Positions 25,117 through 45,313 of a DNA stretch of 64,000 nt are shown here, in pieces (position 1 is the stretch's first letter; each line of letters begins with the position of its first letter). Made by a program: the position numbers and the translations under genes. Source of the stretch: Tritonibacter mobilis (lineage in GTDB: Bacteria > Pseudomonadota > Alphaproteobacteria > Rhodobacterales > Rhodobacteraceae); assembly GCF_001681715.1 (NCBI RefSeq), contig NZ_LNWY01000007.1, forward strand, positions 1 through 64,000, in the 5' to 3' direction. Below the pieces are notes generated by a model, which saw only the letters and a program-made list of their open reading frames with translations, made no database searches and was not told the DNA's origin.

Positions 25117-25165
25117 CAAGACCAAGAAACCACTGCCAAAGGACCAACAGAGAGGACCACACGAT

Positions 25166-26692: not shown

Positions 26693-26699
26693 TCCTGCC

Positions 26700-26731
26700 G
26701 CGCCCTGCCGCCAACTCTTGCGGCGGGGCGC
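26700..26731 (+). other. Stem-loop after the first peptide-binding-protein gene
   Basis: A 12-bp stem with one G-T wobble: GCGCCC-T-GCCGC (26700-26711) pairs with GCGGC-G-GGGCGC (26720-26731), loop of eight bases. It begins eight bases after the stop codon and has no T-tract. Same position as in the other ABC operons here. Confidence 0.75.
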
Positions 26732-26777
26732 ATCTGTCTACCGGCGTAACAGCCCCGCAACCTCACAGGCTTGGTTT

Positions 26778-27722: not shown

Positions 27723-27723
27723 G

Positions 27724-28599: not shown

Positions 28600-28620
28600 A
28601 AAGACTAAGGGAGACATATA

Positions 28621-31157: not shown

Positions 31158-31171
31158 CCCACAACGACAGA

Positions 31172-31194
31172 AGGCCGGATACATTCCCCGGCCT
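31172..31194 (+). terminator. Weak stem-loop after the DUF1028 gene
   Basis: AGGCCGG (31172-31178) pairs with CCGGCCT (31188-31194) over a 9-nt loop, 15 bases after the stop codon. Only CTT follows, so termination may be partial and gntR may be co-transcribed. Confidence 0.5.
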
Positions 31195-31264
31195 CTTGCA
31201 TTAAACAATTGACCTCTGCCCCGGCAGGCTTTTCTTTGCCGGAAATTTCAGGGAACCTGCACTT

Positions 31265-32005
31265 ATGTCGTCATCCAGCCGCAACTCCTCGATCGAGCCG
31301 ATCAAGCAGCAGGTCTTGGCCCTGATCCGCTCGGGCAGCCTTGCGGCGGATGGCAAACTCCCGACCGAGCGGGTGCTGGCCGAACAATTCGACGTCAGCC
31401 GCCGCGCGGTGCGTCAGGCGCTCGACAGTCTGGAAGAACAGGGGCTGGTCTGGCGCAAACAGGGCAAGGGCACCTTTGCGGGACAGCCCGCCGACCCCAC
31501 CGGCGATCTCGCGGCGCGGATTGCCGGGGAAACCGATGCGCTGCAGGTGATGGAAGCGCGCCTGTGTATCGAGCCGGAGCTGGCAGCCCTATGCGCCAAA
31601 CGGATGCAGCCCGATGAACTTGCGCGTCTGCGCCGTCTGGTGCAGCGGCAGTTTGAATCCAGCGGGCCAGAGGCGATCGAACTCTGGGACGGGGCGTTTC
31701 ACCGGCTGATTGCGCAATGCGCCCGCAATCGCCCGCTGCTCACGGCCTTTGCGCTCTTGGACAAGATCCGCTCCAACCCGGAATGGATTCGCATCCGGGC
31801 CAAAGCGCGCAGCGCGCCCTCGCTGGAGGTGTCGCACTGCGAACATGTCACCATCATCGAGGCGATTGCGGCCCAGAACCCCGAATTGGCGCGCACCGCC
31901 ATGCGCGATCACCTGACCACGCGGTTTGACGCGCTCCGGCAGGAAATGGACCCCGCAGATGCGGCCTGGGCCTCCGTGTTGTTCGACCCGGACACCGGCG
32001 CCTGA
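31265..32005 (+). CDS. GntR-family (FadR/FCD subfamily) transcriptional regulator
   Basis: A 246-residue regulator. N-terminal winged helix about 12-75: GKLPTERVLAEQFDVSRRAVRQALDSLEEQGLV, then GKGTF. The C-terminal all-helical FCD ligand domain runs from about residue 90 (VMEARLCIEPELAALCA) with metal-type positions in FHRLIAQCARN and CEHVTIIEAI-x20-MRDHL. Same direction as the ggt operon and two bases from the next gene, which is convergent. It is the likely controller of the operator at 22952-22972. Confidence 0.88.
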   Translation: MSSSSRNSSIEPIKQQVLALIRSGSLAADGKLPTERVLAEQFDVSRRAVRQALDSLEEQGLVWRKQGKGTFAGQPADPTGDLAARIAGETDALQVMEARLCIEPELAALCAKRMQPDELARLRRLVQRQFESSGPEAIELWDGAFHRLIAQCARNRPLLTAFALLDKIRSNPEWIRIRAKARSAPSLEVSHCEHVTIIEAIAAQNPELARTAMRDHLTTRFDALRQEMDPADAAWASVLFDPDTGA

Positions 32006-32007
32006 TC

Positions 32008-32811
32008 TCAAAGCCAGGCCGCATCCACCTCCGGCAGTGGGATCGCATCCAGCAAATCGCGCGTGTACTGGGCCTGCGGCTGTGCAAATAAATCCGCCGT
32101 CGCCGCGTGCTCCACGATCTCACCTTGGTACAGCACCAACGTGGTGCCACAAAGCCGCCGGATAACCGACAGATCATGGCTGACAAAGGCCAGCGTCAGC
32201 CCCATCTCGGCCACCAGCCGCTCCAAGAGTGTCAGCACCTGCGCCTGCGAGGACACATCCAGCCCCGAGACAATCTCATCGGCGAGGATGAACTCCGGCT
32301 CTGTCGCAATGGCGCGGGCAATACCAACGCGCTGGCGCTGGCCGCCAGAGAGCTCATGCGGAAAGCGATGACGAAACGCCAGCGGCAGCCCCACCTGTGA
32401 CAGCGCTTGACTGACCCGGTCCTTCACATCGTCAAACCCATGCAGCCTGAGCGGCCCCGCAATGATCCCGCCCACCGTGCGGCGCGGATTGAGCGAGGAC
32501 ATCGGATCCTGAAAGATCATCTGAAACCGCTTGCGCAGGGGCCGCAGCGCCGCCTCATCCAGATGGGTGATATCGCGCCCTTCAAACTCCACCAGCCCGG
32601 CCGAAGGTTCCAGCAGCCGCACCAGTGCGCGGCCCAAAGTGGATTTGCCGGAGCCCGAGCCGCCCACGATGCCCAGCACCTCGCCGCGCGCAATGTCAAA
32701 GCTCAGCCCCTTCAGCACCTCCACCCGTGGTGCCGCCCCAAACAGGGGCTTTTGCGCCAAGAGCGGAAACGACAGCCGCAGATCACGGACGCGGTAAATC
32801 GGCTCGCTCAT
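32008..32811 (-). CDS. Second peptide-type ABC importer ATPase (OppF/DppF-like)
   Basis: A 267-residue ATPase: Walker A GGSGSGKST near residue 50, FQDPMSSLNPRRTVG, signature LSGGQRQRVGIARAI, Walker B FILADEIVSGLDVS (Ile in place of the usual Pro after DE, which leaves the catalytic Glu intact). It lacks the Cys-containing C-terminal tail of longer homologues. Last gene of the leftward ABC operon, overlapping the other ATPase by four bases. Confidence 0.9.
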   Translation of the reverse strand: MSEPIYRVRDLRLSFPLLAQKPLFGAAPRVEVLKGLSFDIARGEVLGIVGGSGSGKSTLGRALVRLLEPSAGLVEFEGRDITHLDEAALRPLRKRFQMIFQDPMSSLNPRRTVGGIIAGPLRLHGFDDVKDRVSQALSQVGLPLAFRHRFPHELSGGQRQRVGIARAIATEPEFILADEIVSGLDVSSQAQVLTLLERLVAEMGLTLAFVSHDLSVIRRLCGTTLVLYQGEIVEHAATADLFAQPQAQYTRDLLDAIPLPEVDAAWL

Positions 32812-33668
32812 GTCGTGGTCCTCTCGGCAAAATCCAGTTGCGCCTGCAGATCGTCAAGGATGCTTTGCGGCACCGGCGTCAGGCTCTGGTCGGGATCGGT
32901 ATATTTGGGCGTCGCCGCTAAAAGCGCGCGCGAATAGGCATGCTGGGGCGCGGCAAAAAACGCCTCAACCGAGGCCTCTTCGAGCACCATGCCGCCAAAC
33001 AGCACCGTCAGTTTCTGACAGATCTTGGCCACCACCCCCAGATCATGGGTCACGAACAAAAGCGCCGTATTGTGGCGCTGCTGCATTTCCTTAATGAGGC
33101 GCAGGATTTGTTTCTGCACCGTCACATCCAGCGCCGTGGTCGGCTCATCCGCGATGATCAGTTTCGGCTCCGCCGCAAAGGCCGAGGCAATCAGCACCCG
33201 CTGCCGCATCCCGCCCGACAGCTCATGCGGATAGCTCTGCATCACCCGTTTGGGGTCCGGGATATGAACCTCTGCCAACAGCTCCAGCGCGCGGGCCTCG
33301 GCGTCACGCTTGCTCCAGCCCAGAATATCCACCAGCCGCCGTGTGATCTGCGGCCCGATCCGGCGCACCGGATTGAGCGCGGTCAGCGGATCCTGTGGAA
33401 TAAGCGCCGCCGTCTGGCCGATCACCCGACGCCGCTCTGCGGGGCGTAGCGCCAGCAGGTCCTGCCCATCAAGGCGGATCTCACCGCCGGTGATGTGAAT
33501 GGCGCCGGGCAGCGTGCCAAGGATCGCCTTGCCGATCATGCTCTTGCCCGCGCCACTTTCGCCCACCAGCGCGCGCACTTCGCCTGCGGCCACGTTGAGC
33601 GAAACATCACGCAGGATCGGCACCGGACCCACGCGCGCACTGAGGGAGGTGATTTCAAGAAAGCTCAT
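32808..33668 (-). CDS. Second peptide-type ABC importer ATPase (OppD/DppD-like)
   Basis: A 286-residue ATPase with Walker A GESGAGKSM, IPQDPLTALNPVRRIG, signature [15 protein letters not shown], Walker [15 protein letters not shown] and H-motif THDLGVV. Shorter than typical OppD proteins. It overlaps the permease gene upstream by four bases. Works with the ATPase at 32008-32811. Confidence 0.9.
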   Translation of the reverse strand: MSFLEITSLSARVGPVPILRDVSLNVAAGEVRALVGESGAGKSMIGKAILGTLPGAIHITGGEIRLDGQDLLALRPAERRRVIGQTAALIPQDPLTALNPVRRIGPQITRRLVDILGWSKRDAEARALELLAEVHIPDPKRVMQSYPHELSGGMRQRVLIASAFAAEPKLIIADEPTTALDVTVQKQILRLIKEMQQRHNTALLFVTHDLGVVAKICQKLTVLFGGMVLEEASVEAFFAAPQHAYSRALLAATPKYTDPDQSLTPVPQSILDDLQAQLDFAERTTT

Positions 33669-34516
33669 CGCAGCACCGGATCGAAATAGTCCTTCAGCCC
33701 CTCGCCCAATTGGCTAAAGCTGAGGACGGTGAAAAACAGACAGACCAGCGGGAACACCAGCACCCACCACGCCTGATGGATCGACACGCGACCCTCGGAA
33801 ATCATCGACCCCCAAGTGGGATCATCGGTCGAGATTGAGAGGTTCACAAAGGACAGGATCGCCTCGACAATCACCGCGATGCCCATCTCCAGCGTCAAGA
33901 GCACCACCATGGTCGGCAGCACATTGGGCAGGATCTCAAGCAGCATAATGCCAATGCGCTTGTGCCCCGTCACCTGCGCCGAGGCCACGTAATCCATCGC
34001 CCCCTGCGTCATCGCTTCGGCTCGGATCACGCGGGCAAACCGCGTCCAGTCGATCACCACAATTGCGATGATGATGGACGTCAAACCCGTCCCCATCACC
34101 GCAATCAGCAGGATTGAAAACAGCACCGGCGGAAAGGCCATCCAGATGTCGATGAACCGCGAAATCAACAGATCCGGCCAGCCGCGATAGTATCCCGCAA
34201 TCAGCCCGAGCGTGGTGCCCAGCAGGCAGGTCAGCACCCCGGCAATCAGCCCCACAAACAGCGCCACCCGCGCGCCATAAAGAAGACGGCTCAGCACATC
34301 GCGCCCCAGCGAGTCTGTGCCCAACAGATACCCCGGCTCCGCGCCGGGCAACCAAAACGGTGGCATCCGTCCCAGAAACAGATCCTGCATCAGCGGATCT
34401 TTGGGCGCCAAAAGCGGCGCAAAGACCGCCCCCAGCACCAATAGCGTGAGCCAGCCGCCCGAGAGCCACAACCGTGGCCCGATGGGGCGCTTTATTGCAC
34501 TGCGCGCATCAGCCAT
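33665..34516 (-). CDS. Second peptide-type ABC importer permease (DppC-like)
   Basis: A 283-residue permease with GTDSLGRDVLSRLLYGARVAL near residue 80 (in part) and the EAA loop YVASAQVTGHKRIGIMLLEILPN. About six hydrophobic helices. ATG 34516 (MADARSAIKRP) was chosen because it overlaps the end of the upstream permease by eight bases; a start further upstream would run well into that gene. Confidence 0.9.
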   Translation of the reverse strand: MADARSAIKRPIGPRLWLSGGWLTLLVLGAVFAPLLAPKDPLMQDLFLGRMPPFWLPGAEPGYLLGTDSLGRDVLSRLLYGARVALFVGLIAGVLTCLLGTTLGLIAGYYRGWPDLLISRFIDIWMAFPPVLFSILLIAVMGTGLTSIIIAIVVIDWTRFARVIRAEAMTQGAMDYVASAQVTGHKRIGIMLLEILPNVLPTMVVLLTLEMGIAVIVEAILSFVNLSISTDDPTWGSMISEGRVSIHQAWWVLVFPLVCLFFTVLSFSQLGEGLKDYFDPVLR

Positions 34517-35516
34517 GTCGCAACCTCGGATTAAGCAGCGCATAGGTCAGATCAACGATCAGGTTCACCAGCGTGAACATCAGCGCAAACAGGATGACGA
34601 TGCCCTGGATCAGCGGCAGATCGCGGTTGATCACCGCATCAATCGCCATATTGCCAAGGCCCTCATAGGAAAACAGCCGCTCGATGATCACCGTGCCGCC
34701 AATCAGAAACGTGAACTGCACCCCCACCAGAGTCAGCGTCGGCAGGATCGCGTTTGGCAGCGCTTCGCGGGTGATCACCCGATTTTCGCCGTACCCATGC
34801 GTGCGCGCCAGCGTCACGTAATCCAGATGCATGGTTTCCTTGAGCGATTGCTTCAGCAGCTGTGCAATGATCGCCGCGAGCGGAATGGCCAGCGCCAGCG
34901 CGGGCATGAACATGTGGCTCACCAGATCAAGCCAGATATCAAACCGAAGCCGCAGCACGCTCTCAAAGAGGTAAAAGTTGGTGGCAAACGGCAGATCCAG
35001 CGCAGGGGAAACCCGGCCAGAGATGTGAAACACCGGCCAGAGCACCCCAAAGAGCAGGATCAGCAATAGCCCCCACAGGAAATCCGGCACCGAGAGCGCC
35101 ATGCCGTTGGTGACATCAATCGCACCTTCCGTGCGCGTGCCCCGGTGTCGCGTGCCCGTCAGGGCCAGCACACTGCCGATCACAATGGCGATCACCAGCG
35201 CCATCACCGCCAGTTCAATAGTGGCGGGCAGACGCCCCAGCACCAGCGACAGAACCGGCTGGCGGGTGCTGATCGAGGTTCCAAAATCCCCCTGCAGCAC
35301 ACCTGCGACCCAGATCACAAATTGCTCGGGCAGGGATTTATCAAACCCATAGAGCGCCTTGAGGCGTGCGATATCTTCCTCGCCCGCGCCGGGGGGCAGC
35401 ATCATGGCGATGGGGTTTCCGGGCACCACCCGGATCACAAAGAATACAATGACCGCCACGCCAAACAGCGTGATCAGCATGGAAAGAAGGCGGGTGAGAA
35501 GGGCTCTGACTGGCAT
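34509..35516 (-). CDS. Second peptide-type ABC importer permease (DppB-like)
   Basis: A 335-residue OppB/DppB-family permease beginning MPVRALLTRLLSMLITLFG, with VVPGNP near residue 32 and the EAA loop YVTLARTHGYGENRVITREALPN. Compared with the first DppB (26778-27722) it has an extra hydrophilic loop in the middle, around residues 115-185. Follows the binding-protein gene after a 43-bp gap holding a hairpin. Confidence 0.9.
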   Translation of the reverse strand: MPVRALLTRLLSMLITLFGVAVIVFFVIRVVPGNPIAMMLPPGAGEEDIARLKALYGFDKSLPEQFVIWVAGVLQGDFGTSISTRQPVLSLVLGRLPATIELAVMALVIAIVIGSVLALTGTRHRGTRTEGAIDVTNGMALSVPDFLWGLLLILLFGVLWPVFHISGRVSPALDLPFATNFYLFESVLRLRFDIWLDLVSHMFMPALALAIPLAAIIAQLLKQSLKETMHLDYVTLARTHGYGENRVITREALPNAILPTLTLVGVQFTFLIGGTVIIERLFSYEGLGNMAIDAVINRDLPLIQGIVILFALMFTLVNLIVDLTYALLNPRLRHG

Positions 35517-35527
35517 ATATGTATGAG

Positions 35528-35552
35528 GGGCAGCCCATCTGCCGGGCTGCCC
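35528..35552 (-). other. Stem-loop after the second peptide-binding-protein gene
   Basis: GGGCAGCCC (35528-35536) and GGGCTGCCC (35544-35552), a perfect 9-bp stem with a 7-nt loop, between the binding-protein stop and the permease start. No T-tract. Confidence 0.7.
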
Positions 35553-35559
35553 ACCGTCC

Positions 35560-37086
35560 TTATCCGCGCGTCATCAGCGCGGGCAGCAAGGCACCCGAGG
35601 TATGCGGCACCACCTTGACGCCCGGCGCATGCAGGATCGGCTGCACATATTGGAACAGCGGCAACACCAGCGCATCCTCGGCGATCTTGCGATCCACCGC
35701 TTTCCAGCCTTCGATGCGCTTGGTCTCATCCGCTTCGCCCCAGAGCGGGCCGATCATTGCCGCGAGGTCTTCGCCGTCCCAGACCGAATGCGGCGAGGGG
35801 CCGAACATGGCAAATCCGGTCGATGTGGTCGGATCGCCAATGGAGTTGCCCCAGTTATAAAACGCCGCCGGGGCCAGCTGGTCTGTGGCGCGCAGCTCGT
35901 AATGTTTGGCGACCTCATAGACCTCGATCTCGGCCTCAATCCCGACCCGACGCCACAGACCCACGATCGCCTGAATGATCTCGTAATCCTTGGGCTTGAA
36001 GCCACGGGTGGTCTGGATCTTGAACTTTACCGGGTTGTCCGGCCCATAGCCCGATTTCGCCAGCAGCGCCTTGGCCCCGTCGGGATCATAGGGCGTGGTA
36101 ATCGACGCGTCATAAGCCGCATATTCCGGCGTTTGCAGCGTATCAATCGGCACGCCGTACCCCGACAAGAGCCGGTCCACGATGGCCTGTTTGTCCACCG
36201 CCATCACCGCCGCCTTGCGCACGTTGGGGTCTGCCATCACCTCGATATCGTTAAAGAAAATCATCGCGATGTCAGAGACGGGATGCGCCACGCCCTCGAG
36301 TTTGCCCGCCTTCAGGCGATCAAATTCCTCGTAAGGCATCTCCAGCGTGACATGGGCGTTGCCAGATTCCACCTCTGCCACCCGCGCCGCCGCGTCGGTC
36401 ACAAATTTGATGGTGACACTCTCAAATTCGGGCTTCGGCCCCCAATAATCGCCAAAGGCCTTGAGTCGCACAAAGGCGTTGCGCTCATATTTTTCGACCA
36501 TATAGGGGCCAGAGCCGATGGGCGCGGCCTCAAACCCTTCGGCGCCAACGCGCTCAATGTAGGCTTTGGGCCGCACATAGCCGGTGAGGAACGACATCCA
36601 TTTGAAAATCGTCGGCTCAAACCGCAAAACATCCGCGGTGATACGCTGGCCATCGATCTGGAAATTGCCCACCGTGGACCAGATAAACTGGATCGGGTTG
36701 CCGCCATCCGGGTCGGCTGCGGTCTCAAGGCTCCAGACCACATCCTCGGGCGTCAGATCCGTGCCATCATGCCATTTGACGCCCTCGCGCACGGTCATGA
36801 AAATCTGGCTCTTGTCGTCGTTCCAGCCCCAATCGGTCACGATCCCCGGCACCTGCGACAGATCCGTGTCCTGCGCGATGAACAGGTCAAATACCGATTG
36901 ATACATGCCCTGCAAGGTCGGGTTCACCGCCGACAGCCCCACGGTCGGGTCCCAACTGGGCAATGAGACGTTATTGGCAATCACCAATTCGTCGATATTT
37001 TGGGCAAAGGCGGGCAAGCCCACCGCTGCCAATGAAATCGATGCCGCGCCGAGCTTGAGCAAGCTCCTTTTGCTGAGTGTTGTCAT
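35560..37086 (-). CDS. Periplasmic binding protein of the second peptide-type importer
   Basis: A 508-residue SBP_bac_5 protein. The N terminus MTTLSKRSLLKLGAASISLA resembles a twin-arginine signal with Lys-Arg in place of Arg-Arg, ending in LPAFA; export by Sec is also possible. Core landmarks: SLPSWDPTVGLSAVNPTLQG, VREGVKWHDGTDLTPEDVVW, GSGPYMVEKYERNAFVRLK (in part). The GGGAGG site before ATG 37086 is strong. The ligand is unknown. The cluster of aromatic-compound enzymes that follows suggests it may import an indolic compound or conjugate rather than a peptide. Confidence 0.88.
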   Translation of the reverse strand: MTTLSKRSLLKLGAASISLAAVGLPAFAQNIDELVIANNVSLPSWDPTVGLSAVNPTLQGMYQSVFDLFIAQDTDLSQVPGIVTDWGWNDDKSQIFMTVREGVKWHDGTDLTPEDVVWSLETAADPDGGNPIQFIWSTVGNFQIDGQRITADVLRFEPTIFKWMSFLTGYVRPKAYIERVGAEGFEAAPIGSGPYMVEKYERNAFVRLKAFGDYWGPKPEFESVTIKFVTDAAARVAEVESGNAHVTLEMPYEEFDRLKAGKLEGVAHPVSDIAMIFFNDIEVMADPNVRKAAVMAVDKQAIVDRLLSGYGVPIDTLQTPEYAAYDASITTPYDPDGAKALLAKSGYGPDNPVKFKIQTTRGFKPKDYEIIQAIVGLWRRVGIEAEIEVYEVAKHYELRATDQLAPAAFYNWGNSIGDPTTSTGFAMFGPSPHSVWDGEDLAAMIGPLWGEADETKRIEGWKAVDRKIAEDALVLPLFQYVQPILHAPGVKVVPHTSGALLPALMTRG

Positions 37087-37096
37087 GTTGTCCTCC

Positions 37097-38662
37097 CTAT
37101 GACGCCAGTTTTTGGCCGAGTAGAAACCCCGCGCCCGCCCCGGTGCCTGCACCGGGCCAGACCGCAGCGCCTGTGTGAAACAGGCCCTCAATGGGGGTAC
37201 TTCCGTCCGAGCGGCCAAACATCGGGCGGTACAGGAAATGCTGCGACAGATGGTGCGAGCCGCAAATCTGGTCTCCTCCAACCAGATTGGGGTTGTCTGC
37301 CTCAAGCATGTCCGGGGTCACCACTTTCTGAGCGATGATCTTGGCCCGTGTGCCGGGCGCATAGCGCTCCAGAATATCAAGGGCGCGATTGGCCATCGGC
37401 GCGGCGGCCGCCTGCCAGTCGCGCGCGCTGATCTGCCCCGCCGCATCGCCTTTGATGTCGCCGGGCACCATACGCACCTGCATCCAGAGCACATGTTTGC
37501 CCTCCGGCGCGCGGCTCGGATCAATCGCCGTCGGCTGCCCCACCACCACCACAGGTGCGTCGGGCAATAGCCCCGCCTGCGCCTGCTGATAGGTGCGCGC
37601 CATCTGGTCCATGTCGGGGGCCAGATGCACATAGGCAAACTGGCGCAATTCCGGGTCCGCGCGCCAATCGGGCAGATCCTCCATCGCCAGATGGATCATC
37701 ATCGTCCCCGGCGCATGGCGGAATCTCTTCAGTTTCTGCTGATAATCGGGGGTCTCCTCGCCCATCAGCTTTGCCAGATGTTTGGGGGCGACATTGGCGA
37801 TCACCGCGCGCTGCGCCTGACAGATGCGACCATCAGCCAGACGCACGCCCGTGGCCTTGCCGCCCTCGATCAGCACATCCGTGACCGGCACATTGGTCCA
37901 AATTCGCCCGCCTGCATCCTCGATACAGGCGACCATCGCCTTGATGATCGTATCCGCGCCGCCCTCGCCGATCACCATGCCAAAGCTCTGATTGGCCATG
38001 GCTTCCAGATAGGGAAACACCGCCCCCCCGGCGATGTCGGGGGCAAAATCCAGATGCATACCCCAAGCGGCCAGCGTCGATTTCACCTGCGCGCTTTCAA
38101 AGGTATCGCCCAGCCAGCTGCGCGGCGACGACAGCAAAAACCGCAGCAGTTCTAATGCGCCGCGCGTGCCCTCCTTGCGCCACAGACGCCACAGGATCTT
38201 GGCGAGGGGCCAGAACTTAAACGGGGTTCCCAGCAGCGCAAAGATATGCTCGGCCCGTGCCGGGAACTGGTCACTGAGCGCCCCCCAGGCTTCCCCATCG
38301 TTATTTGCAAATGCAGAAATATTCTTCGCATTGCGGCTACGGTCATTGGTGATGCCCAGCCATGTGTCATCGCCAAAGGCGGTGGCAAAGCAGCGCTCTG
38401 CGGGCACGAAGCTCAACCCCGCCGCCGTCAGCTCTGTCTGAAAGCGCTGAAAGAACGGTGATCCGGCGAATAAAGACAGGTTCATCGCGGCCCAGTCGTG
38501 CCGAAACCCCTCTGCAGTATAGGCCCCGGTCTTCACCGCGCCGCCAATCTCCGCCGCTTGTTCACAGATCAAAACGCGCCATCCACGGCTTTGCAGCACC
38601 ATGGCACACGCCAAACTATTCAGCCCCGATCCAATGATCACGGCATCCGTTTTCTGGTCCAT
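37097..38662 (-). CDS. CrtI-like FAD-dependent oxidoreductase 1
   Basis: A 521-residue flavoprotein of the phytoene-desaturase/amine-oxidase superfamily. N-terminal FAD motif VIIGSGLNSLACAMVLQSRGW with the acidic residue in VLICEQ and GGAVKTGAY; C-terminal FAD segment IEGLFHTGAAVWPGAGTGAGAG. About 45% like the partner at 39555-41114 by eye, especially in the C-terminal third (NLVGGD, PDAP/PDAPRQIKGDA). Ten bases upstream of the binding-protein gene, so it heads the leftward operon and is divergent from the isatin-hydrolase-like gene. No carotenoid genes are nearby, so a role in oxidation of an aromatic substrate is more likely than desaturation of phytoene. Confidence 0.82.
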   Translation of the reverse strand: MDQKTDAVIIGSGLNSLACAMVLQSRGWRVLICEQAAEIGGAVKTGAYTAEGFRHDWAAMNLSLFAGSPFFQRFQTELTAAGLSFVPAERCFATAFGDDTWLGITNDRSRNAKNISAFANNDGEAWGALSDQFPARAEHIFALLGTPFKFWPLAKILWRLWRKEGTRGALELLRFLLSSPRSWLGDTFESAQVKSTLAAWGMHLDFAPDIAGGAVFPYLEAMANQSFGMVIGEGGADTIIKAMVACIEDAGGRIWTNVPVTDVLIEGGKATGVRLADGRICQAQRAVIANVAPKHLAKLMGEETPDYQQKLKRFRHAPGTMMIHLAMEDLPDWRADPELRQFAYVHLAPDMDQMARTYQQAQAGLLPDAPVVVVGQPTAIDPSRAPEGKHVLWMQVRMVPGDIKGDAAGQISARDWQAAAAPMANRALDILERYAPGTRAKIIAQKVVTPDMLEADNPNLVGGDQICGSHHLSQHFLYRPMFGRSDGSTPIEGLFHTGAAVWPGAGTGAGAGFLLGQKLAS

Positions 38663-38686
38663 TTCTGGCCTCCCTCACGCATATTG

Positions 38687-38700
38687 TTTGCAAATGCAAA
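38687..38700. promoter_or_regulatory. Palindromic operator candidate between divergent operons
   Basis: TTTGCAAATGCAAA is a perfect inverted repeat (TTTGCA-AA-TGCAAA) in the 96-bp gap between the CrtI-like gene 1 and the isatin-hydrolase-like gene. Candidate site for the MarR protein at 41111-41581. A near-copy (13 of 14) lies inside the CrtI-like gene at 38304-38317. Confidence 0.5.
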
Positions 38701-38758
38701 TTTATTTGTCTAGCGTTGAATCACACCTACGGGGTCGATCTTTGCAAGGGAGGATGCA

Positions 38759-39550
38759 ATGAACGCAGGAAACACACTGGCCAATCTGGGGCAAATGCTG
38801 GCGTCAGGCGCGGTCGAAATCATCGATTGCACGGGCGTCTTGGGGCCCAACACCCCAATTCTGCAACTGCCTGAAGACTTTGCCAAAAACACACCCAAAG
38901 TCGAAATTCACAAGATCAGTGAATATGACGAGGACGGCCCGTTTTTTGCGTGGAACTGGATGGTTCTGGGCGAACACTCAGGCACCCATTTCGACGCGCC
39001 GCATCACTGGGTCACCGGCAAGGATTACAGCGACGGGTTTACCGACACGCTCGACGTCAATCGCTTGATTGCACCGGTCAATGTGATCGACTGCTCCAAG
39101 GAAAGCGCCGCGGATGAGGACTTTTTGCTGACCGCCGATCTGGTCAAAGCATGGGAGGCAGAGCACGGCGAAATCAACGCAGGCGAATGGGTGGTCATGC
39201 GCACCGACTGGGACCAGCGCGCCGGCGACGAGGCCAAATTCCTCAATGCCGATGAGAGCGGCCCCCACAGCCCCGGCCCCACGCCAGATTGCATCGAATA
39301 TCTCTTGTCGAAAAAGATCGTCGGCTGGGGCAGCCAGTGCATCGGCACGGACGCAGGCCAAGCGGGCGCGATGGACCCGCCCTATCCCGCGCACAACCTG
39401 TTGCACCGCGACAATTGCTTTGGTCTGGCAAGCCTTGCCAACCTCGACAAGCTGCCCGCCAAAGGCGCGATCCTGATCGCAGCACCCTTGAAAATCGAGC
39501 GTGGCACCGGCTCTCCGATCCGCGCCCTTGCGATGGTTTCCAAGGGCTAA
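38759..39550 (+). CDS. Isatin hydrolase-like metal-dependent hydrolase (cyclase family)
   Basis: A 263-residue cyclase-family enzyme. The metal motif HSGTHFDAPHHW places His73, His77 and Asp79 as ligands; H212 and S225 are also present. These numbers agree with those I recall for the structurally studied Labrenzia isatin hydrolase (His73, His77, Asp79; Ser225 in the water channel), and the stretches CTGVLGPNTPILQLP and EYDEDGPFFAWNWMVLGEHS look very close to it. The enzyme opens the isatin lactam to isatinate with Mn2+. Start 38759 has AAGGGAGGA before it. It precedes a CrtI-like enzyme, a MarR regulator and IorAB. A kynurenine-formamidase-like role is the alternative, less likely because of the specific residues. 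Confidence 0.82.
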   Translation: MNAGNTLANLGQMLASGAVEIIDCTGVLGPNTPILQLPEDFAKNTPKVEIHKISEYDEDGPFFAWNWMVLGEHSGTHFDAPHHWVTGKDYSDGFTDTLDVNRLIAPVNVIDCSKESAADEDFLLTADLVKAWEAEHGEINAGEWVVMRTDWDQRAGDEAKFLNADESGPHSPGPTPDCIEYLLSKKIVGWGSQCIGTDAGQAGAMDPPYPAHNLLHRDNCFGLASLANLDKLPAKGAILIAAPLKIERGTGSPIRALAMVSKG

Positions 39551-39554
39551 CACC

Positions 39555-41114
39555 ATGACAGATCACGTCATAATCGGGTCGGGGATCAACGCTCTGGTGG
39601 CCGCCGCCTTGTTGTCGCGCAAAGGGCGCAAGGTGGTGGTGCTGGAGCGTGAGGATCGTCTGGGCGGCTGCATGATGACCGCCGAGGCCACCCTGCCCGG
39701 CTTTTATCATGACGTGATGGCCGCGACGTTTGTGCTGTTTCTGACCTCGCCCGCCTATGGCGAGCTGGCGGCGGATCTGGCGCAGCACGGGTTTGAGCTC
39801 TGTCACACCACGCATCCCACCGCCGTGTTGCGCCCCAACGGGCGCGCCACCATCCTCAGCATGGACCGCGCCGCCAATATCGCGCAGTTCAACGCGCTTG
39901 CAGCAGGCGATGGCGACCTGCACGACCGCGACGTGAGCGCCATCGAGGCGGATGCGGAGTTTCTGTTCTCGCTCCTTGGGGGTGAACTTTGGCGTTGGCG
40001 CACCGCCCGGCTGATGCTGTCGCAAATCCGCAAACGCGGCCTCAATGGGCTGAAAACATGGTTTGGCGAGGCGCTGCGCCCCGCCCGCGCATGGCTGGAG
40101 CCCGCCTATCAAAGCCCCGACATTCAGGCCCTCTGGGCACCATGGGTGCTGCACACGGGCCTCACGCCCGAAAGCACCTATTCCGGTCAAATGGGCAAGG
40201 TCATCGCCTTCGCGCTGGAGGCCGCCGGTGCCCCCATCGTCAAAGGCGGCGCGGGCCAGGCGGTCGCCGCCTTCCGCGCGCTCATTGAATCCCACGGCGG
40301 TGAATTGCGCACAGGCGCGGATGTGGCAGAGATCATCACTCAGGACGGCAAAGCCCGTGGCGTGCGCCTTGCGAATGGCGAGGCGATCTGGGCCGGCTCG
40401 GTGCTGGCCTCCGTCACGCCTTCGCAACTCTATGGGCGGCTGTTGAACGGCGCAGAAATTGCCCCCGAACAGCACGCGACGCAGAATTTCCGCCACGGGC
40501 GCGGCAATTTCCAACTGCATTATGCCCTCGAGAACCCCCCAGTGTGGCGGGCCGAGGGGCTTGAGAATGTGGCGCTGATCCATCTCGCAGATGGTATTGA
40601 TTCCGTGTCCAAATCCGCCAATGAGGCCGAGCGCGGCCTCTTTCCCGAGACCCCCACCATCTGCGTCGGCCAGCCCCACCGGCTTGATCCCTCGCGCTGT
40701 CCAGAGGGCAAGGCGATCCTGTGGCTACAGATCCCCGACGCCCCGCGCCAGATCAAAGGCGACGCCAAGGGGGAAATCACCGGCAAGGATTGGGACGACG
40801 CCACCCGAGAGGCCTTTGCCGACCGTATTGAGGCGATCCTTGCCCGCCACATCGCAAACTTTGACGACATCAAACTGGCCCGCCGCGCCTATTCCCCCGC
40901 CGATCTGCAACGGCTCAATATGAACCTCGTGGGCGGCGACCCTTATGGCGGCCACTGCGGCATTGATCAGTTTTTCACCTTTCGTCCGTTCCCCGCTTCC
41001 TGCAATGGGGCGACATCATTTTCCAACCTATACCACATCGGGGCCTCCACCCATCCGGGACCGGGTCTGGGCGGCGGCTCGGGGTACAACACAGCAAAGC
41101 GATTGGGCGGATGA
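39555..41114 (+). CDS. CrtI-like FAD-dependent oxidoreductase 2
   Basis: A 519-residue flavoprotein starting MTDHVIIGSGINALVAAALL with the FAD acidic residue in VVVLERED, GGCMMTAEATLPGFYHD, and a C-terminal FAD segment NLYHIGASTHPGPGLGGGSG. Paralogue of the enzyme at 37097-38662; both have an RLDPSR/AIDPSR stretch and KAILWLQ/HVLWMQ before IKGDA. Four bases after the isatin-hydrolase-like stop and overlapping the MarR gene by four, so the three are co-expressed. Two related flavoproteins could be successive oxidation steps or a heteromer. Confidence 0.84.
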   Translation: MTDHVIIGSGINALVAAALLSRKGRKVVVLEREDRLGGCMMTAEATLPGFYHDVMAATFVLFLTSPAYGELAADLAQHGFELCHTTHPTAVLRPNGRATILSMDRAANIAQFNALAAGDGDLHDRDVSAIEADAEFLFSLLGGELWRWRTARLMLSQIRKRGLNGLKTWFGEALRPARAWLEPAYQSPDIQALWAPWVLHTGLTPESTYSGQMGKVIAFALEAAGAPIVKGGAGQAVAAFRALIESHGGELRTGADVAEIITQDGKARGVRLANGEAIWAGSVLASVTPSQLYGRLLNGAEIAPEQHATQNFRHGRGNFQLHYALENPPVWRAEGLENVALIHLADGIDSVSKSANEAERGLFPETPTICVGQPHRLDPSRCPEGKAILWLQIPDAPRQIKGDAKGEITGKDWDDATREAFADRIEAILARHIANFDDIKLARRAYSPADLQRLNMNLVGGDPYGGHCGIDQFFTFRPFPASCNGATSFSNLYHIGASTHPGPGLGGGSGYNTAKRLGG

Positions 41115-41581
41115 CGGAGCCACAGGAACAACAACAAACACTCGGGGAAATCGGGCTGGAGAATTTCGCGCCCTACCTCATGAACCGCATTATGGGACGC
41201 TACAACGCGTCGATGCGCGAAGAACTGGCAGAGCTTGGCCTGACCACGCCAAAGATGCGTGCGCTGGCGGTGCTGGCGATGATCGACGGTCTTTTGATCG
41301 GCCAACTCGCGGTTTATGCGGTGGTCGAATATTCCACCCTGTCGCGCTCGCTCGACGGGCTAGAGGCCGACGCATTGGTCGAACGCCGACCCGATATCGA
41401 GGACGCCCGCGCCACCCGCGTCTTTATCACCCCCGCCGGGCGCAGCACCTTTGAAAAAATCTGGCCGCGCATGGCAGAGGCCACGGCGCAGATGTTCGAA
41501 GGCATCTCTACCGACGAGCGGCGGGTTTTTACAACAACGCTGCAAAAGATGCTCCGCAACATTCGGGTGCATGATTTCTGA
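41111..41581 (+). CDS. MarR-family transcriptional regulator
   Basis: A 156-residue winged-helix regulator: LGLTTPKMRALAVLAMIDGLLIGQLAVYAVVEYSTLSRSLDGLEADALVER, wing DIEDARATRVFITPAG. It starts within the stop region of CrtI-like gene 2 (ATGA) and lies before iorAB. MarR proteins usually repress their own catabolic operon and release DNA on binding an aromatic ligand, which fits this cluster. Candidate site: 38687-38700. Confidence 0.88.
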   Translation: MTEPQEQQQTLGEIGLENFAPYLMNRIMGRYNASMREELAELGLTTPKMRALAVLAMIDGLLIGQLAVYAVVEYSTLSRSLDGLEADALVERRPDIEDARATRVFITPAGRSTFEKIWPRMAEATAQMFEGISTDERRVFTTTLQKMLRNIRVHDF

Positions 41582-41639
41582 TCCCCAATCAGCCGCCGCA
41601 TACCACGCCACTCAGCAATATTAAGTCGCAAGGGACCCC

Positions 41640-43790
41640 ATGGCAGAACGGTCATTCAAAAAAGAAGTCGAGGAACTGCGCGCAGGTGCAGGCGAAACCT
41701 TTACCGGCGAAGGCATTCTGGCCCTGACCAAGGCGCTTTTGGAGAATGGCGTGGGCTATGTCGGCGGCTATCAGGGCGCGCCGATTTCGCATCTGATGGA
41801 TGTTCTGGCAGATGCGCAGGAGCTGTTGGGCGAATTGGATGTGCGCTTTGAGGCCAACGCCTCCGAGGCCGCCGCCGCTGCCATGCTCGCGGCCTCTGTT
41901 CATTATCCGATCCGCGGTGCGGTGACGTTCAAAGGCTCGGTCGGGGTCAATGTGGCCTCTGATGCGCTCGCCAACCTGTCGTCCTCCGGGGTGACCGGCG
42001 GCGCGGTGGTGATCGTGGGCGAGGACTACGGCGAAGGCTCCTCCATCATGCAGGAGCGCAGCCACGCCTTTGCGATGAAATCGCAATTCTGGCTGATAGA
42101 CCCGCGCCCCAACCTGCCCTCGATCGTGAAATCCGTCGGCGACAGTTTCGAGCTTTCCGAGGCCTCAAACACCCCCGTGATGCTGATGGTGCGCATCCGC
42201 AGTTGCCACGTCACCGGCAGCTTTGAATGTTCCGACAACCAGCGCCCGGCGCTGACGGTGCGCGACGCGCTCAGCAATCCGCAAAAGGACTGGAACCGGG
42301 TGGTGCTGCCGCCGATGTCCTTTGCCCACGAACAGGACAAGATCAACACGCGCTGGCCCAATGCGGTACAGCACATCATCGACAAAGGGCTGAATGAATT
42401 CTTCGGCCCCAAAGAGGGCGAGCTTGGCATCATCTGTCAGGGCGGCATGTACAACGGCGTCATCCGCGCGCTGCAACGCCTCGGCCTTGCGGATATCTAC
42501 GGCAACACCGAAATCCCGCTCTATTGCCTCAATGTCACCTACCCGCTGGTGGACAGTGAGGTGCTGCGCTTTGCGGCTGGTAAAAAAGCCGTCCTGATGA
42601 TCGAGGAAGGCCAGCCCGAGTTTATCGAACAGTCGCTCTCCACCATCTTTTTGCGCTCGGACCTGAAGGTCAAACTCCACGGCAAGGACGTCTTTCCAAT
42701 GGCGGGCGAATACACCGGTCAGGTGATGTTCGACAGCATTTCGGAATTCTTGCGTCTCAATGCGCCGGGGCTGTTGCCGGATAAGATGCGCGCGCCAAAC
42801 CAGCCGCCGCCCGAAATCCCCGACCTCAGCAAAACCGTTCCGATCCGCCCCCCCGGGTTCTGCACCGGCTGCCCGGAGCGGCCGATCTTTGCAGGGCTGA
42901 AGCTTGCACAAGAAGAACTTGGCACACATCAGATCAGCGCGGATATCGGCTGTCATCTCTTTGCCGCGCTGCCGCCGTTTGAAATCGGCGGGGCCACCAT
43001 GGGCTATGGTCTGGGGCCTGCCTCCAACGCGGCTTTTGACGGCGGCGGCGAGCGGCGCGCCATCTCGATCATTGGCGATGGGGGCTTTTGGCACAACGGG
43101 CTGTCGTCTTCGATCGGCAATATGGTGTTCAACAAATCCGACTCCGTCGCGGTGATCGTGGACAACTATTACTCCGCCGCCACCGGCGGGCAGGACATCC
43201 TCTCTAGCCGTGCCGACAATCCGACCAAATCCACCAACAACCCGATCCCCAAGGCGCTCAAAGGGATCGGCGTGGAGTGGATTCGCCACATCGACCACAC
43301 CTATGATGTGGGCCGAATGCGCGATGTGTTCCGCGAGGCCCTCACCACCGATTACGACGGACCAAAGGTGATTGTGGCCTCCTCGGAATGTATGTTGAAC
43401 CGCCAGCGCCGCGAAAAACCGCTGCGCAACAAGGCGATCAAGGACGGCCAGCGCATGGAAATCCCACGCTTTGGCGTGGATGAGGACATCTGCACCGGCG
43501 ATCACGCCTGCATCCGCCTGTCGGGCTGCCCCTCCCTGTCGGTGAAACATCTCGATGACCCGCTGCGCGACGACCCGGTGGCGGCGATTGACCAGACCTG
43601 CGTGGGCTGCGGCAACTGTGGCGAGGTGGCGGATGCCGCCGTGCTCTGCCCCAGCTTCTACCGCGCCGATGTGGTGCATAACCCCGGCGGCTTTGAACGC
43701 TGGTGGAACGGAGTCTCCACGCGCGTCATCACTTGGCTGCAAACCCGTCGCGAGACCCGCCGCCTGACCTTTATGGAGGTGCCGCAATGA
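41640..43790 (+). CDS. iorA: Indolepyruvate ferredoxin oxidoreductase, alpha subunit
   Basis: A 716-residue IorA-type subunit. N-terminal pyrimidine-binding domain (NGVGYVGGYQGAPISHLMD), thiamine-diphosphate motif GDGGFWHNGL with DNYY about 25 residues later, and a C-terminal ferredoxin domain. The first cluster reads CTGDHACIRLSGCP, with Asp where the second Cys is expected; the second is CVGCGNC-x8-CP. The family converts arylpyruvates such as indolepyruvate to aryl-acetyl-CoA, reducing ferredoxin. Overlaps iorB by four bases. An aryl-acetyl-CoA product fits the isatin-hydrolase-like neighbour in an indole pathway. Confidence 0.9.
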   Translation: MAERSFKKEVEELRAGAGETFTGEGILALTKALLENGVGYVGGYQGAPISHLMDVLADAQELLGELDVRFEANASEAAAAAMLAASVHYPIRGAVTFKGSVGVNVASDALANLSSSGVTGGAVVIVGEDYGEGSSIMQERSHAFAMKSQFWLIDPRPNLPSIVKSVGDSFELSEASNTPVMLMVRIRSCHVTGSFECSDNQRPALTVRDALSNPQKDWNRVVLPPMSFAHEQDKINTRWPNAVQHIIDKGLNEFFGPKEGELGIICQGGMYNGVIRALQRLGLADIYGNTEIPLYCLNVTYPLVDSEVLRFAAGKKAVLMIEEGQPEFIEQSLSTIFLRSDLKVKLHGKDVFPMAGEYTGQVMFDSISEFLRLNAPGLLPDKMRAPNQPPPEIPDLSKTVPIRPPGFCTGCPERPIFAGLKLAQEELGTHQISADIGCHLFAALPPFEIGGATMGYGLGPASNAAFDGGGERRAISIIGDGGFWHNGLSSSIGNMVFNKSDSVAVIVDNYYSAATGGQDILSSRADNPTKSTNNPIPKALKGIGVEWIRHIDHTYDVGRMRDVFREALTTDYDGPKVIVASSECMLNRQRREKPLRNKAIKDGQRMEIPRFGVDEDICTGDHACIRLSGCPSLSVKHLDDPLRDDPVAAIDQTCVGCGNCGEVADAAVLCPSFYRADVVHNPGGFERWWNGVSTRVITWLQTRRETRRLTFMEVPQ

Positions 43791-45313
43791 ACGCCCCCAC
43801 CCTGCCCGTCCGCACCCCGGACGAAAAACTCCAGAGCATCATCAAGATCGCCACCCTCGCCGTCGGGGGTCAGGGCGGCGGCGTCCTCACGGGCTGGATC
43901 GAGAGCGTGGCCCGCGCGCAGGGCTATGCCGCGCAGGCCACATCGGTGGCCGGGGTCGCGCAGCGCACAGGTGCCACGATCTACTATATCGAAATGGCCC
44001 CGATGGGCGACACCATGCCCGTGTTTTCGCTCGCGCCCACCAGCGGCGACGTTGACATTATGATCGCCGCCGAGCTGATGGAGGCCGGGCGCGCCATTAT
44101 GCGCGGCTTTGTCACCCCGGATCGCACCACGCTCATTGCCTCGACCCACCGCGCGCTGGCGGTCTCGGAAAAAATGGTGCCCGGTGACGGCATCGCCAAC
44201 GCGGACGAGGTGTTTGAGGCCGCCCGGCTCGCCTCGGACCAGCTCATCATGTTCGACCTTGATCGCATGGCCACCGAGAATGGCTCGGTGATCTCCTCCT
44301 CGCTCTTTGGCGCACTTGCAGGCTCTGGCGCCCTGCCCTTCCCGCGCGCCGCCTTTGAGGACGCCATTCGCGCCTCCGGCAAAGGGATCGAGGCCAGCCT
44401 GCGCGCCTTTGATGCCGCTTTCCGACGCGCGCAATCCGGCGCAAACGCGCCCGAACCCTCTGCCGCAACGCCCCGCGCACAGACCACACCCAAAGGCCCG
44501 GAGCCGCAGCTTCACGCCTGGCACGCGCTCGAAGAAGAGGCGCGCAGCATCGCCCCTATGGCTGTTCTGGGACTGAAAAAAACCGTTGAATTTCAGGACA
44601 TTAAATATGGGCGCGAATATCTGGACCGGCTGCGGCGGTTTCACGATCTGCACCCCAAAAACGCGGAACTCCAAGAGGCCGCCTCTAAATATATCGCAAA
44701 TGCGATGTGTTACGATGACATCATCCGCGTGGCCGATCTCAAAACCCGCCGCGCCCGGTTTGAACGCATCACGCAGGACATGAAATCCGGCCAAAGCCCT
44801 GTGCATCTGACCGAGTTTTTCCACCCCCGTGGCGAGGAAATCGTCTCGCTCCTGCCCGCCGGTCTGGGCCGCTGGCTCGAGGCCCGCCCACGCCTCAATG
44901 CGTGGATCGACCGCCGCCTCAACCGGGGACGCCGGGTGCGGACCCATCGTTTGTCGGGGTTTGTGACGCTCTATCTCTTGGGGGGCTTGCGCCGCATCCG
45001 CCGCAAAAGCCTGCGTCACGCGATCGAACAAGCCCATCTGGATGCATGGCAAACCGCCTGCCTCGATCTGGCCAAAACCGACGCCGCCGCCGCGACCGAG
45101 CTCTTGGCCTGTCGCCGCCTCATCAAAGGATACTCTGACACCCATGTGCGGGGGCTGTCGAAATTCTCCCGCGTGATGGAGGCGGCAAAACTTGTCTATG
45201 GCCGCGATGACGCCGCCCAATGGATCGCCCGCCTGCGCGAGGCCGCCTTGCGCGACGAAAAGGGCGAGGAATTAAACGGCGCGATCAAAACCATCCAGTC
45301 CTTTACCGGCTGA
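43787..45313 (+). CDS. iorB: Indolepyruvate oxidoreductase, beta subunit with C-terminal extension
   Basis: A 508-residue protein. Residues about 20-215 are the gamma/beta POR-type catalytic domain (KIATLAVGGQGGGVLTGWIE, SVAGVAQRTGATIYYIEM). The rest (about 250-508) is a basic helical domain found in the aerobic type of IorB (DUF6537-like), with GLKKTVEFQDIKYGREYLDRL (in part) and HLTEFFHPRGEEI. Short IorB proteins of anaerobic archaea lack this extension. Translation is coupled to iorA through ATGA. It ends the rightward operon. Confidence 0.87.
   Translation: MNAPTLPVRTPDEKLQSIIKIATLAVGGQGGGVLTGWIESVARAQGYAAQATSVAGVAQRTGATIYYIEMAPMGDTMPVFSLAPTSGDVDIMIAAELMEAGRAIMRGFVTPDRTTLIASTHRALAVSEKMVPGDGIANADEVFEAARLASDQLIMFDLDRMATENGSVISSSLFGALAGSGALPFPRAAFEDAIRASGKGIEASLRAFDAAFRRAQSGANAPEPSAATPRAQTTPKGPEPQLHAWHALEEEARSIAPMAVLGLKKTVEFQDIKYGREYLDRLRRFHDLHPKNAELQEAASKYIANAMCYDDIIRVADLKTRRARFERITQDMKSGQSPVHLTEFFHPRGEEIVSLLPAGLGRWLEARPRLNAWIDRRLNRGRRVRTHRLSGFVTLYLLGGLRRIRRKSLRHAIEQAHLDAWQTACLDLAKTDAAAATELLACRRLIKGYSDTHVRGLSKFSRVMEAAKLVYGRDDAAQWIARLREAALRDEKGEELNGAIKTIQSFTG

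Follow-up and report, generated by a model that had tools for sequence, protein, structure and literature searches.

The 64,000-nucleotide stretch of Tritonibacter mobilis DNA analyzed here (the window; contig NZ_LNWY01000007.1, positions 1 to 64,000) carries at 32008-45313 a cluster of 11 genes that includes an isatin hydrolase B, and isatin hydrolysis by this enzyme is, judged by its match to a characterized orthologue, nearly certain. In the reading we prefer, to which we assign a probability of roughly 0.6, an importer and two flavoproteins would lead to isatin, the hydrolase would open it to isatinate, and the IorAB pair would convert isatinate, with coenzyme A (CoA), to 2-aminobenzoyl-CoA. 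The case for this route is built from homology, synteny and co-occurrence, from which we infer every reaction other than isatin hydrolysis. In its full form, an Opp/Dpp-type ATP-binding cassette (ABC) transporter would import a small indole-derived compound, most likely of the dioxindole type, which the two CrtI-fold flavoproteins would oxidize to isatin. Isatin hydrolase B would then yield isatinate, an aryl 2-oxoacid, and IorAB would carry out an oxidative decarboxylation with CoA, giving 2-aminobenzoyl-CoA and reduced ferredoxin. The breakdown would be completed by a separate operon, located outside the cluster, that combines a gene resembling 2-aminobenzoyl-CoA monooxygenase/reductase (ACMR) with beta-oxidation genes, and a MarR-family protein may repress both operons of the cluster from a shared promoter until a pathway compound binds. 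We regard the cluster as the lower half of an isatin pathway, and thus as half of an iad pathway (auxin catabolism), fitted with its own importer and a new entry.

The 11 genes form two divergent runs separated by a 96-base gap. The minus-strand run consists of flavoprotein A and a substrate-binding protein, followed by two Opp/Dpp-type permeases and two ATPases of the same type, and the plus-strand run holds the isatin hydrolase, flavoprotein B, MarR, iorA and iorB. An earlier reading made from the sequence alone (the sequence-only reading) had described divergent operons with a dedicated importer at this place; all the genes it named are present, and the importer is conserved. Gene starts are those of the collinear, annotated plasmid of T. 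mobilis F1926, which has the same 11 genes in the same order. The features are as follows.

32008..32811, minus strand: ABC transporter ATPase, DppF/OppF type (open reading frame [ORF]; best NCBIfam match OppF, 254 bits, cut-off 540; syntenic)
32808..33668, minus strand: ABC transporter ATPase, DppD/OppD type (ORF, NCBIfam; syntenic)
33665..34516, minus strand: ABC transporter permease, DppC/OppC type (ORF, NCBIfam; start as in T. mobilis F1926)
34509..35516, minus strand: ABC transporter permease, DppB/OppB type (ORF, NCBIfam)
35560..37086, minus strand: periplasmic substrate-binding protein, SBP_bac_5 family (PF00496, E=3.5e-69; start as in F1926)
37097..38662, minus strand: flavoprotein A, FAD oxidoreductase with a carotenoid-desaturase fold (families; AlphaFold model; Foldseek)
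38663..38758, no strand: divergent promoter region between flavoprotein A and isatin hydrolase (intergenic)
38687..38700, plus strand: probable MarR operator TTTGCAAATGCAAA, part of the conserved block TTGCANAYGCA...GTCTAG (motif conservation)
38759..39550, plus strand: isatin hydrolase B, cyclase family (phmmer to 4j0n/4m8d, E=4.7e-166; alignment to the Labrenzia aggregata enzyme)
39555..41114, plus strand: flavoprotein B, FAD oxidoreductase with a carotenoid-desaturase fold (families; model; Foldseek)
41111..41581, plus strand: MarR-family regulator (PF12802; structure matches)
41640..43790, plus strand: IorA, large subunit of a thiamine-diphosphate 2-oxoacid oxidoreductase with a C-terminal ferredoxin-like domain, IadA type (families; Fe-S cysteines; co-occurrence)
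43787..45313, plus strand: IorB, POR domain plus DUF6537, IadB type (PF01558, E=7e-17; PF20169, E=2.6e-41; start as in F1926)

Judged by its alignment, the first gene of the plus-strand run is an isatin hydrolase B, in agreement with the isatin-hydrolase-like enzyme of the sequence-only reading. In addition to its family assignment (PF04199, cyclase), the protein matched, in a phmmer search against solved structures, isatin hydrolase B of Labrenzia aggregata (LaIHB; 4j0n and 4m8d) at the E value listed above and the A-type isatin hydrolases more weakly (E=1e-84 to 1e-80). It is identical to LaIHB at 234 of 262 residues and keeps all of H73, H77, D79, H83, D198, H212, A224 and S225. Both the HxG[T/A]HxDxPxH metal motif and the Asp-His-His catalytic residues are present. 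The catalytic and metal residues were mapped from the excerpted text of the LaIHB structure paper (PMC6117287). The isatin-hydrolyzing activity of this Labrenzia orthologue is known. The orthologue of Labrenzia sp. DG1229, identical to LaIHB at 236 of 262 residues, sits in the same eleven-gene cluster (locus L200; L numbers denote loci and G numbers genomes). Kynurenine formamidase (KynB, TIGR03035) was considered as another identity for the hydrolase and rejected, with a score of 33.4 bits against a cut-off of 223.05 and the strong isatin hydrolase match instead.

The cluster was then followed through a sample of 198 genomes of the family, in which isatin hydrolases were counted at E≤1e-40. 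The enzyme is found in 37 genomes, at 52 places. Leaving aside the window's own place, wider stretches were compared for 40 of the remaining 51, and 13 of these stretches contain all 11 genes in the same order and on the same strands; the complete arrangement also recurs in two loci from other families of the class (L170 and L171). Across Rhodobacterales and Rhizobiales the eleven-gene cluster is kept together as one block, and this neighborhood search shows that the combination singled out by the sequence-only reading did not come together by chance. A second set, of named genomes, consists of the best 80 of at least 576 confirmed isatin-hydrolase relatives, mostly Rhodobacterales and Rhizobiales and including Mesorhizobium, Hoeflea and Labrenzia; because only the best 80 were kept, its counts describe close relatives. 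Some contigs of this set stop inside the cluster, and some of its loci are the same contigs as loci of the family sample (e.g., L207 and L041). Both flavoproteins are present in 54 of the 80 named loci, iorA at ≥60% identity in 68, an ACMR-like gene in 23, and a gene for a kynureninase-like enzyme dependent on pyridoxal phosphate (PLP) in 17. Synteny matches covering less than 40% of the query (family stretches) or less than 35% (named and later loci) were dropped. Variants of the cluster retain hydrolase-(MarR)-iorA-iorB, while the remainder is swapped, with other transporters, no flavoproteins, or a fusion of the hydrolase to a PLP domain.

The association between the hydrolase and IorA is strict in the family. 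IorA at ≥63% identity occurs in 37/37 genomes with an isatin hydrolase, compared to 1/161 of the others; in this lone genome (G155), flavoprotein B is present near iorA only in part. Places with 51 to 56% identity (G009, G118, G120, G133 and G143, and second copies in G142 and G186) were not counted, and two of these seven genomes have an isatin hydrolase. All five genomes with only an A-type hydrolase (G031, G092, G139, G186 and G193) also have IorA, although in four of them the two genes lie on separate contigs or about 60 kb apart. In a sample of the wider class, IorA is found at E≤1e-150 in 13/13 hydrolase genomes and 45/372 others, and at ≥60% identity in 7/13 and 10/372, respectively. 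This pairing bears on the proposal that the hydrolase merely detoxifies isatin formed as a side product, with IorAB and the flavoproteins serving an unrelated aromatic substrate. Isatin can indeed form spontaneously from oxidized indoles, according to the excerpted text of PMC12538310, and IorAB relatives exist without the hydrolase, but the strict family-level pairing and the shared promoter are hard to explain by detoxification, which makes this explanation highly improbable.

IorA and IorB together have the make-up of the 2-oxoacid:ferredoxin oxidoreductase superfamily, with thiamine-diphosphate (TPP), ferredoxin and POR domains on two subunits. TPP_enzyme_C (PF02775) in IorA and PF01558 in IorB score above their cut-offs and Fer4_10 in IorA is weak (18.4 bits, cut-off 25.5); C618, C624, C630, C654, C657, C660 and C670 of IorA are invariant across 15 aligned rows. 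Automatic annotation names the pair indolepyruvate oxidoreductase, and the sequence-only reading likewise took IorAB for an enzyme that forms indoleacetyl-CoA from indolepyruvate. In this version, the indolepyruvate would derive from tryptophan and the isatin hydrolase would act later on the same indoleacetate route. Both are indole enzymes, and an amino-acid-like importer would suit a tryptophan source. However, IorA reaches only 275.8 bits against the indolepyruvate ferredoxin oxidoreductase family (TIGR03336, cut-off 650.9), and the cluster has no Rieske oxygenase, ligase or thiolase that would lead from indoleacetyl-CoA to isatin. Moreover, IorA co-occurs with both hydrolase types and lies in or beside auxin-type loci, which would start from indoleacetate and in which a step from indolepyruvate to indoleacetyl-CoA has no evident purpose. 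Here, auxin-type is defined by gene kinds (Rieske oxygenase, ligase, thiolase, short-chain dehydrogenase/reductase [SDR] and hydrolase). Examples are L172 (Rieske-hydrolase-iorA-iorB), L174 (iorBA adjoining a complete A-type locus), L206 (a complete A-type locus followed by isatin hydrolase B-MarR-iorAB), L120 (IorA also inside or beside the locus) and Azospirillum thermophilum, with MarR and iorA-iorB-Rieske-ligase-SDR-ACMR and no isatin hydrolase in the listed stretch. Indolepyruvate was rejected as the main IorAB substrate on the family score and on this placement, and the indoleacetyl-CoA route as a whole appears improbable.

The neighbors of iorB point in the same direction. A thioesterase gene lies directly 3' of iorB in three relatives (Ruegeria pomeroyi, Sagittula and Shinella), and in a fourth, Caballeronia, iorAB adjoins a thioesterase, an ACMR/salicylyl-CoA-hydroxylase-type gene and a gentisate-type dioxygenase; a thioesterase or a salicylyl-CoA-type hydroxylase beside iorB fits an aroyl-CoA product. 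Such contexts fit an enzyme that would make aroyl-CoA from aryl glyoxylates, isatinate being one, and IorAB is a probable isatinate oxidoreductase. Phenylglyoxylate:acceptor oxidoreductase converts an aryl glyoxylate to an aroyl-CoA by oxidative decarboxylation, as proposed here for IorAB; the two are likened by reaction and not by sequence, and their subunit make-up differs. No published assignment of isatinate oxidation to IorAB was found in the titles and abstract starts among the matches listed, a search outside which most subscription papers fall.

Published data on the iad counterparts, as given in excerpts of the respective papers, are in line with a role near isatinate. In Bradyrhizobium supplied with indole-3-acetic acid (IAA), iorA is upregulated 30.7-fold and iorB 7.64-fold (PMC3788728), and IadA and IadB are exclusive markers of iad loci (PMC9613470). 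In a Variovorax background from which the locus is deleted, a compound of formula C8H7NO3 strongly accumulates only on overexpression of iadC-K2; N-formylanthranilate was excluded, and the excerpt assigns no name to the compound (PMC12633357). Isatinate has this formula. The name of the region and the locus deletion imply that the iadC-K2 strains lack iadAB (PMC12633357), and the absence of IorAB would explain the pile-up.

In a tree of IorA, rows from A-type and B-type hydrolase genomes are intermixed, and the A-type-only genomes, with the exception of G186, fall among the rows of B-type clusters. The tree excludes 12 near-copies (L191, L198, L254, L256-L259 and L264-L268), with L255 also left out of one later comparison, and the Azospirillum row L074 was disregarded (wrong reading frame, branch of 10). 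Some IorAB relatives stand in other settings. L071, L073, L075 and L076 have IorAB with thioesterase, cupin (gentisate-dioxygenase type in L076), fumarylacetoacetate-hydrolase and carbon-nitrogen-hydrolase genes, three of the four also with an Asp/Glu-racemase gene beside IorAB, in what looks like a separate aromatic route from an aryl glyoxylate to gentisate. On a conjugative plasmid of Variovorax sp. PBS-H4 from linuron-contaminated soil (L072, 10001-12349), an IorA relative without an annotated iorB lies between IS1071 transposases, with amidohydrolase and acyl-homoserine-lactone synthase genes nearby.

A CoA-level exit is suggested by the ACMR-like genes (PRK08255 family), which occur in 35/38 IorA genomes of the family sample (the others being G014, G028 and G108) compared to 33/160 of the remaining genomes. 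In seven genomes (G034, G077, G104, G121, G142, G178 and G184), no more than 25 kb of a shared contig separates the ACMR-like gene from iorA, and in L117 this gene comes immediately after a complete auxin-type locus of the A type. The genome of the window has its ACMR-like gene on another contig, together with CoA ligase, acyl-CoA dehydrogenase, enoyl-CoA hydratase and SDR genes. Its protein scores 1318.8 bits against NF006101 (salicylyl-CoA 5-hydroxylase/ACMR; cut-off 1078), a model that merges salicylyl-CoA and 2-aminobenzoyl-CoA enzymes. The 2-aminobenzoyl-CoA route itself is published (PMC3534580).

The upper part of the route would depend on the two flavoproteins, which are paralogous (176 of 516 aligned residues identical) and belong to PF01593/NAD_binding_8. 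Their best NCBIfam matches are of the CrtO/CrtI type, so that the CrtI-like assignment of the sequence-only reading holds, as does its view of them as new players in an indole-compound catabolic cluster. The phytoene desaturase model (CrtI, TIGR02734; cut-off 238.1) is not reached, at 132.4 and 87.4 bits. Structural models (mean pLDDT of 85.4 for A, from AlphaFold, and 83.6 for B) both have gamma-carotene desaturase 4rep as the best Foldseek match, with E=5.1e-27 and a TM score of 0.78 for A and E=1.3e-24 and 0.76 for B (by query length). CrtI (4dgk, TM score of 0.54 for A and B), nicotine oxidoreductase and amine oxidases follow behind. Among solved structures, no sequence relative of the flavoproteins with a known indole activity was found. 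The fold names no substrate; most likely, the flavoproteins would act upstream and oxidize an imported (di)oxindole-type compound to isatin.

Relatives of the cluster offer hints to where such a compound could originate. A gene of the StyA type adjoins the cluster on 10 contigs (L040, L043, L053, L171, L205, L223, L227, L237, L249 and L260), in six cases with an SDR and a flavin reductase beside it (L040, L043, L053 with L113, L171, L205 and L237). The adjoining StyA scores 596 bits to 7z4x, which we take to be an indole monooxygenase (the 7z4x record reads putative dehydrogenase/oxygenase subunit), versus 120 bits to styrene monooxygenase 3ihm. In the family sample, an indole-monooxygenase-like StyA occurs in seven genomes, six of which belong to the 23/198 with flavoprotein B; the remaining one, G166, is incomplete. 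Among the 38 genomes that have the hydrolase or flavoprotein B, this preference is not significant (6/23 versus 0/15, p=0.06). The flavoproteins could accordingly belong to indole degradation, in which an indole monooxygenase and an SDR would produce dioxindole and the flavoproteins would pass isatin to the known lower part. The SDR, StyA and flavin reductase genes are of the same kinds as iifB, iifC and iifD, and in the excerpt of PMC12538310, IifC and IifD oxidize indole to a dihydrodiol and IifB and IifA lead onward to anthranilate. Nevertheless, StyA lies within the stretch at just 6/57 flavoprotein loci of the named set, and the genome of the window has no such StyA at E≤1e-50. An origin from indole is therefore possible but doubtful, and indole monooxygenase is at best one of several entries.

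A different start would be oxidized tryptophan, for instance dioxindolylalanine, free or in peptides, taken up by the Opp-type importer. Its side chain would be removed by a kynureninase-like PLP enzyme (a retro-aldol reaction to isatin and alanine) or by flavoprotein oxidation, ahead of isatin hydrolase and IorAB. A class-V PLP domain is fused to the isatin hydrolase in L047, L041 and L056-L058, and lies directly adjacent to it, by frame-blind searches, in L207, L228, L231 and L244. Fused or alone, the PLP gene is present in 21/37 isatin-hydrolase genomes and 2/161 others. The best solved relative of the enzyme is kynureninase 1qz9 (E=9.9e-16), and in the alignment, a Leu precedes the PLP lysine in L047 where 1qz9 has a Tyr; chemically, a kynureninase-like cleavage of dioxindolylalanine is conceivable in these PLP variants. 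In L047, a Dpp-type transporter and a peptidase-like gene (named by eye) precede the PLP-hydrolase fusion. Against this start, no PLP gene of this kind reaches E≤1e-60 in the genome of the window, and the literature matches listed include no title on bacterial dioxindolylalanine breakdown; we consider it unlikely. The PLP enzyme and the flavoproteins were also considered as strict alternatives, an idea that was rejected, as the PLP gene lies nearby in 7/57 flavoprotein loci. What these entries most likely share is a compound that a single oxidation would turn into isatin and that Tritonibacter would obtain from outside.

Other genes recur around the flavoprotein loci. Next to iorB, many of them (L044, L045, L209, L217, L220 and others) have a luciferase-type monooxygenase, often with a flavin reductase, and a further MarR-like gene. 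L209, L223 and L227 have a small VOC-like gene (named by eye) with an apparent signal peptide between marR and iorA; this family occurs in 18/57 flavoprotein loci and not in the window.

Several observations weigh against the proposed route from an imported compound through isatinate to 2-aminobenzoyl-CoA. The association of IorA with the hydrolase in the family is partly shared ancestry, and in the class sample the best IorA is just 53 to 54% identical in 6/13 hydrolase genomes. Conversely, 10 of the 17 class genomes with IorA at ≥60% identity have no isatin hydrolase and show iorA near TRAP-like transporters (named by eye) or other genes; the substrates of this IorA group are therefore probably wider than isatinate. 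The IorA of G186 clusters in the tree with rows from gentisate contexts, away from the isatin-cluster rows. In Variovorax, the nine-gene iadC-K2 region restores anthranilate according to the excerpt of PMC12633357, and IorAB is therefore not needed for free anthranilate there. On the exit side, PRK08255 also covers salicylyl-CoA hydroxylases, and the ACMR operon of the window's genome has a CoA ligase of its own, of the benzoate-CoA-ligase type (371.0 bits, cut-off 375.25). On the entry side, the window's genome lacks the StyA gene at the threshold given above, and the transporter is of a type that would suit peptides or amino acids just as well as indoles.

The proposed regulation of the cluster centers on the MarR protein and the divergent promoter. 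The closest solved structure of the regulator is 3cjn (E=9.4e-57), followed by the auxin-catabolism MarR 7kym (E=1.1e-22) and 7kfo (E=5.5e-9). The sequence-only reading had called it an aromatic-type MarR, which is only partly borne out: the auxin-catabolism protein is the second-closest structure, and the HpaR family score is 34.8 bits (cut-off 121.2). In the pocket of MarR_73, S28 and R46 bind IAA. The motif TTGCANAYGCA is present within 350 bases upstream of the isatin hydrolase in 54 of 73 non-fused named loci, compared to four matches in 1,330,592 bases elsewhere in the same loci; since the motif was derived from these loci, many of them near relatives, the counts express conservation and not an independent discovery. 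The window has the motif at 38688 and at three more sites, one of them inside flavoprotein A (38305), against 0.63 occurrences expected in the window. The copy between the two gene runs probably serves as the MarR operator. Upstream of the ACMR-like genes in L109-L117, no MarR operator motif was found, and the matches in L109 (4160) and L112 (10595) are intragenic.

Three T. mobilis plasmids of 136 to 147 kb match the whole stretch at 97.5 to 97.6% nucleotide identity, and the window is part of a contig of 145,849 bases; for these reasons, the locus is almost surely plasmid-borne in a Tritonibacter, as the sequence-only reading had proposed in placing it on an extrachromosomal replicon. Its further suggestion of a mobile trait fares less well. 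The collinear F1926 plasmid is typed as non-mobilizable in PLSDB, which does not support self-transfer, although Rhizobiaceae and Stappiaceae rows stand among Rhodobacterales rows in the IorA tree, as horizontal spread would give. Upstream of the cluster, the window holds a second Opp-type ABC transporter (23003-32005, positions via the F1926 plasmid), with a gamma-glutamyltranspeptidase, a DUF1028 protein and a FadR/GntR regulator, perhaps for the use of gamma-glutamyl compounds. On the other side, a gene for a Fic-family protein lies at 47828-49375.

Compared to known systems, the cluster most resembles the iad loci of Variovorax, Achromobacter and Bradyrhizobium, as excerpted from PMC9613470 and PMC12633357. 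Both have an isatin-hydrolase-type gene (the counterpart of IadI by role), IorAB (IadAB), a MarR regulator and a flow through isatin to the level of anthranilate. The iorA and iorB marker genes are of the same type as those in the Rieske loci L172, L174 and L206 and in Azospirillum, and their likeness to Variovorax IadAB is one of type and not of alignment. However, ORF and family searches found no Rieske IadCDE, ligase IadF or thiolase IadG at 32008-45313, so the cluster does not qualify as an iad locus; in place of these genes it has two flavoproteins and an importer of the Opp type. In the literature excerpts, IadA and IadB serve as exclusive iad markers to which no reaction is ascribed, and no gene is named for the step beyond isatinate. 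That IorA pairs with isatin hydrolase and aminobenzoyl-CoA genes suggests one concrete, testable reaction for IadA and IadB. This pairing may also indicate how marine and soil bacteria feed on indole-derived compounds besides auxin, and it draws attention to two flavoprotein families without an assigned substrate. We advance tentatively, as a rather unlikely combination, that IorAB/IadAB is an ATP-free isatinate:ferredoxin oxidoreductase forming a common exit of auxin, indole and perhaps oxidized-tryptophan breakdown, and that the paired CrtI-fold flavoproteins represent a novel type of oxidase converting (di)oxindoles to isatin, with a carotenoid-desaturase fold acting on indoles in marine and soil Alphaproteobacteria.

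The hydrolase shares with LaIHB (4j0n, 4m8d) the identical and catalytic residues given above, and the gene neighborhood of LaIHB is not described in the excerpt of PMC6117287. With the iif and ipo-dho indole clusters (PMC12538310, PMC6221969), some relatives of the cluster have in common the adjoining SDR, StyA-type monooxygenase and flavin reductase genes. In the excerpts of these two papers, neither an isatin hydrolase nor IorAB nor comparable flavoproteins are named for those clusters, and there IifB and IifA lead to anthranilate. Finally, the 2-aminobenzoyl-CoA pathway of Azoarcus evansii and Arthrobacter Rue61a, as excerpted from PMC3534580, shares with the window's genome the ACMR-like, CoA ligase, acyl-CoA dehydrogenase and enoyl-CoA hydratase genes. 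In contrast to that pathway, in which an ATP-dependent ligase activates anthranilate (PMC3534580), IorAB would here give the CoA ester directly.

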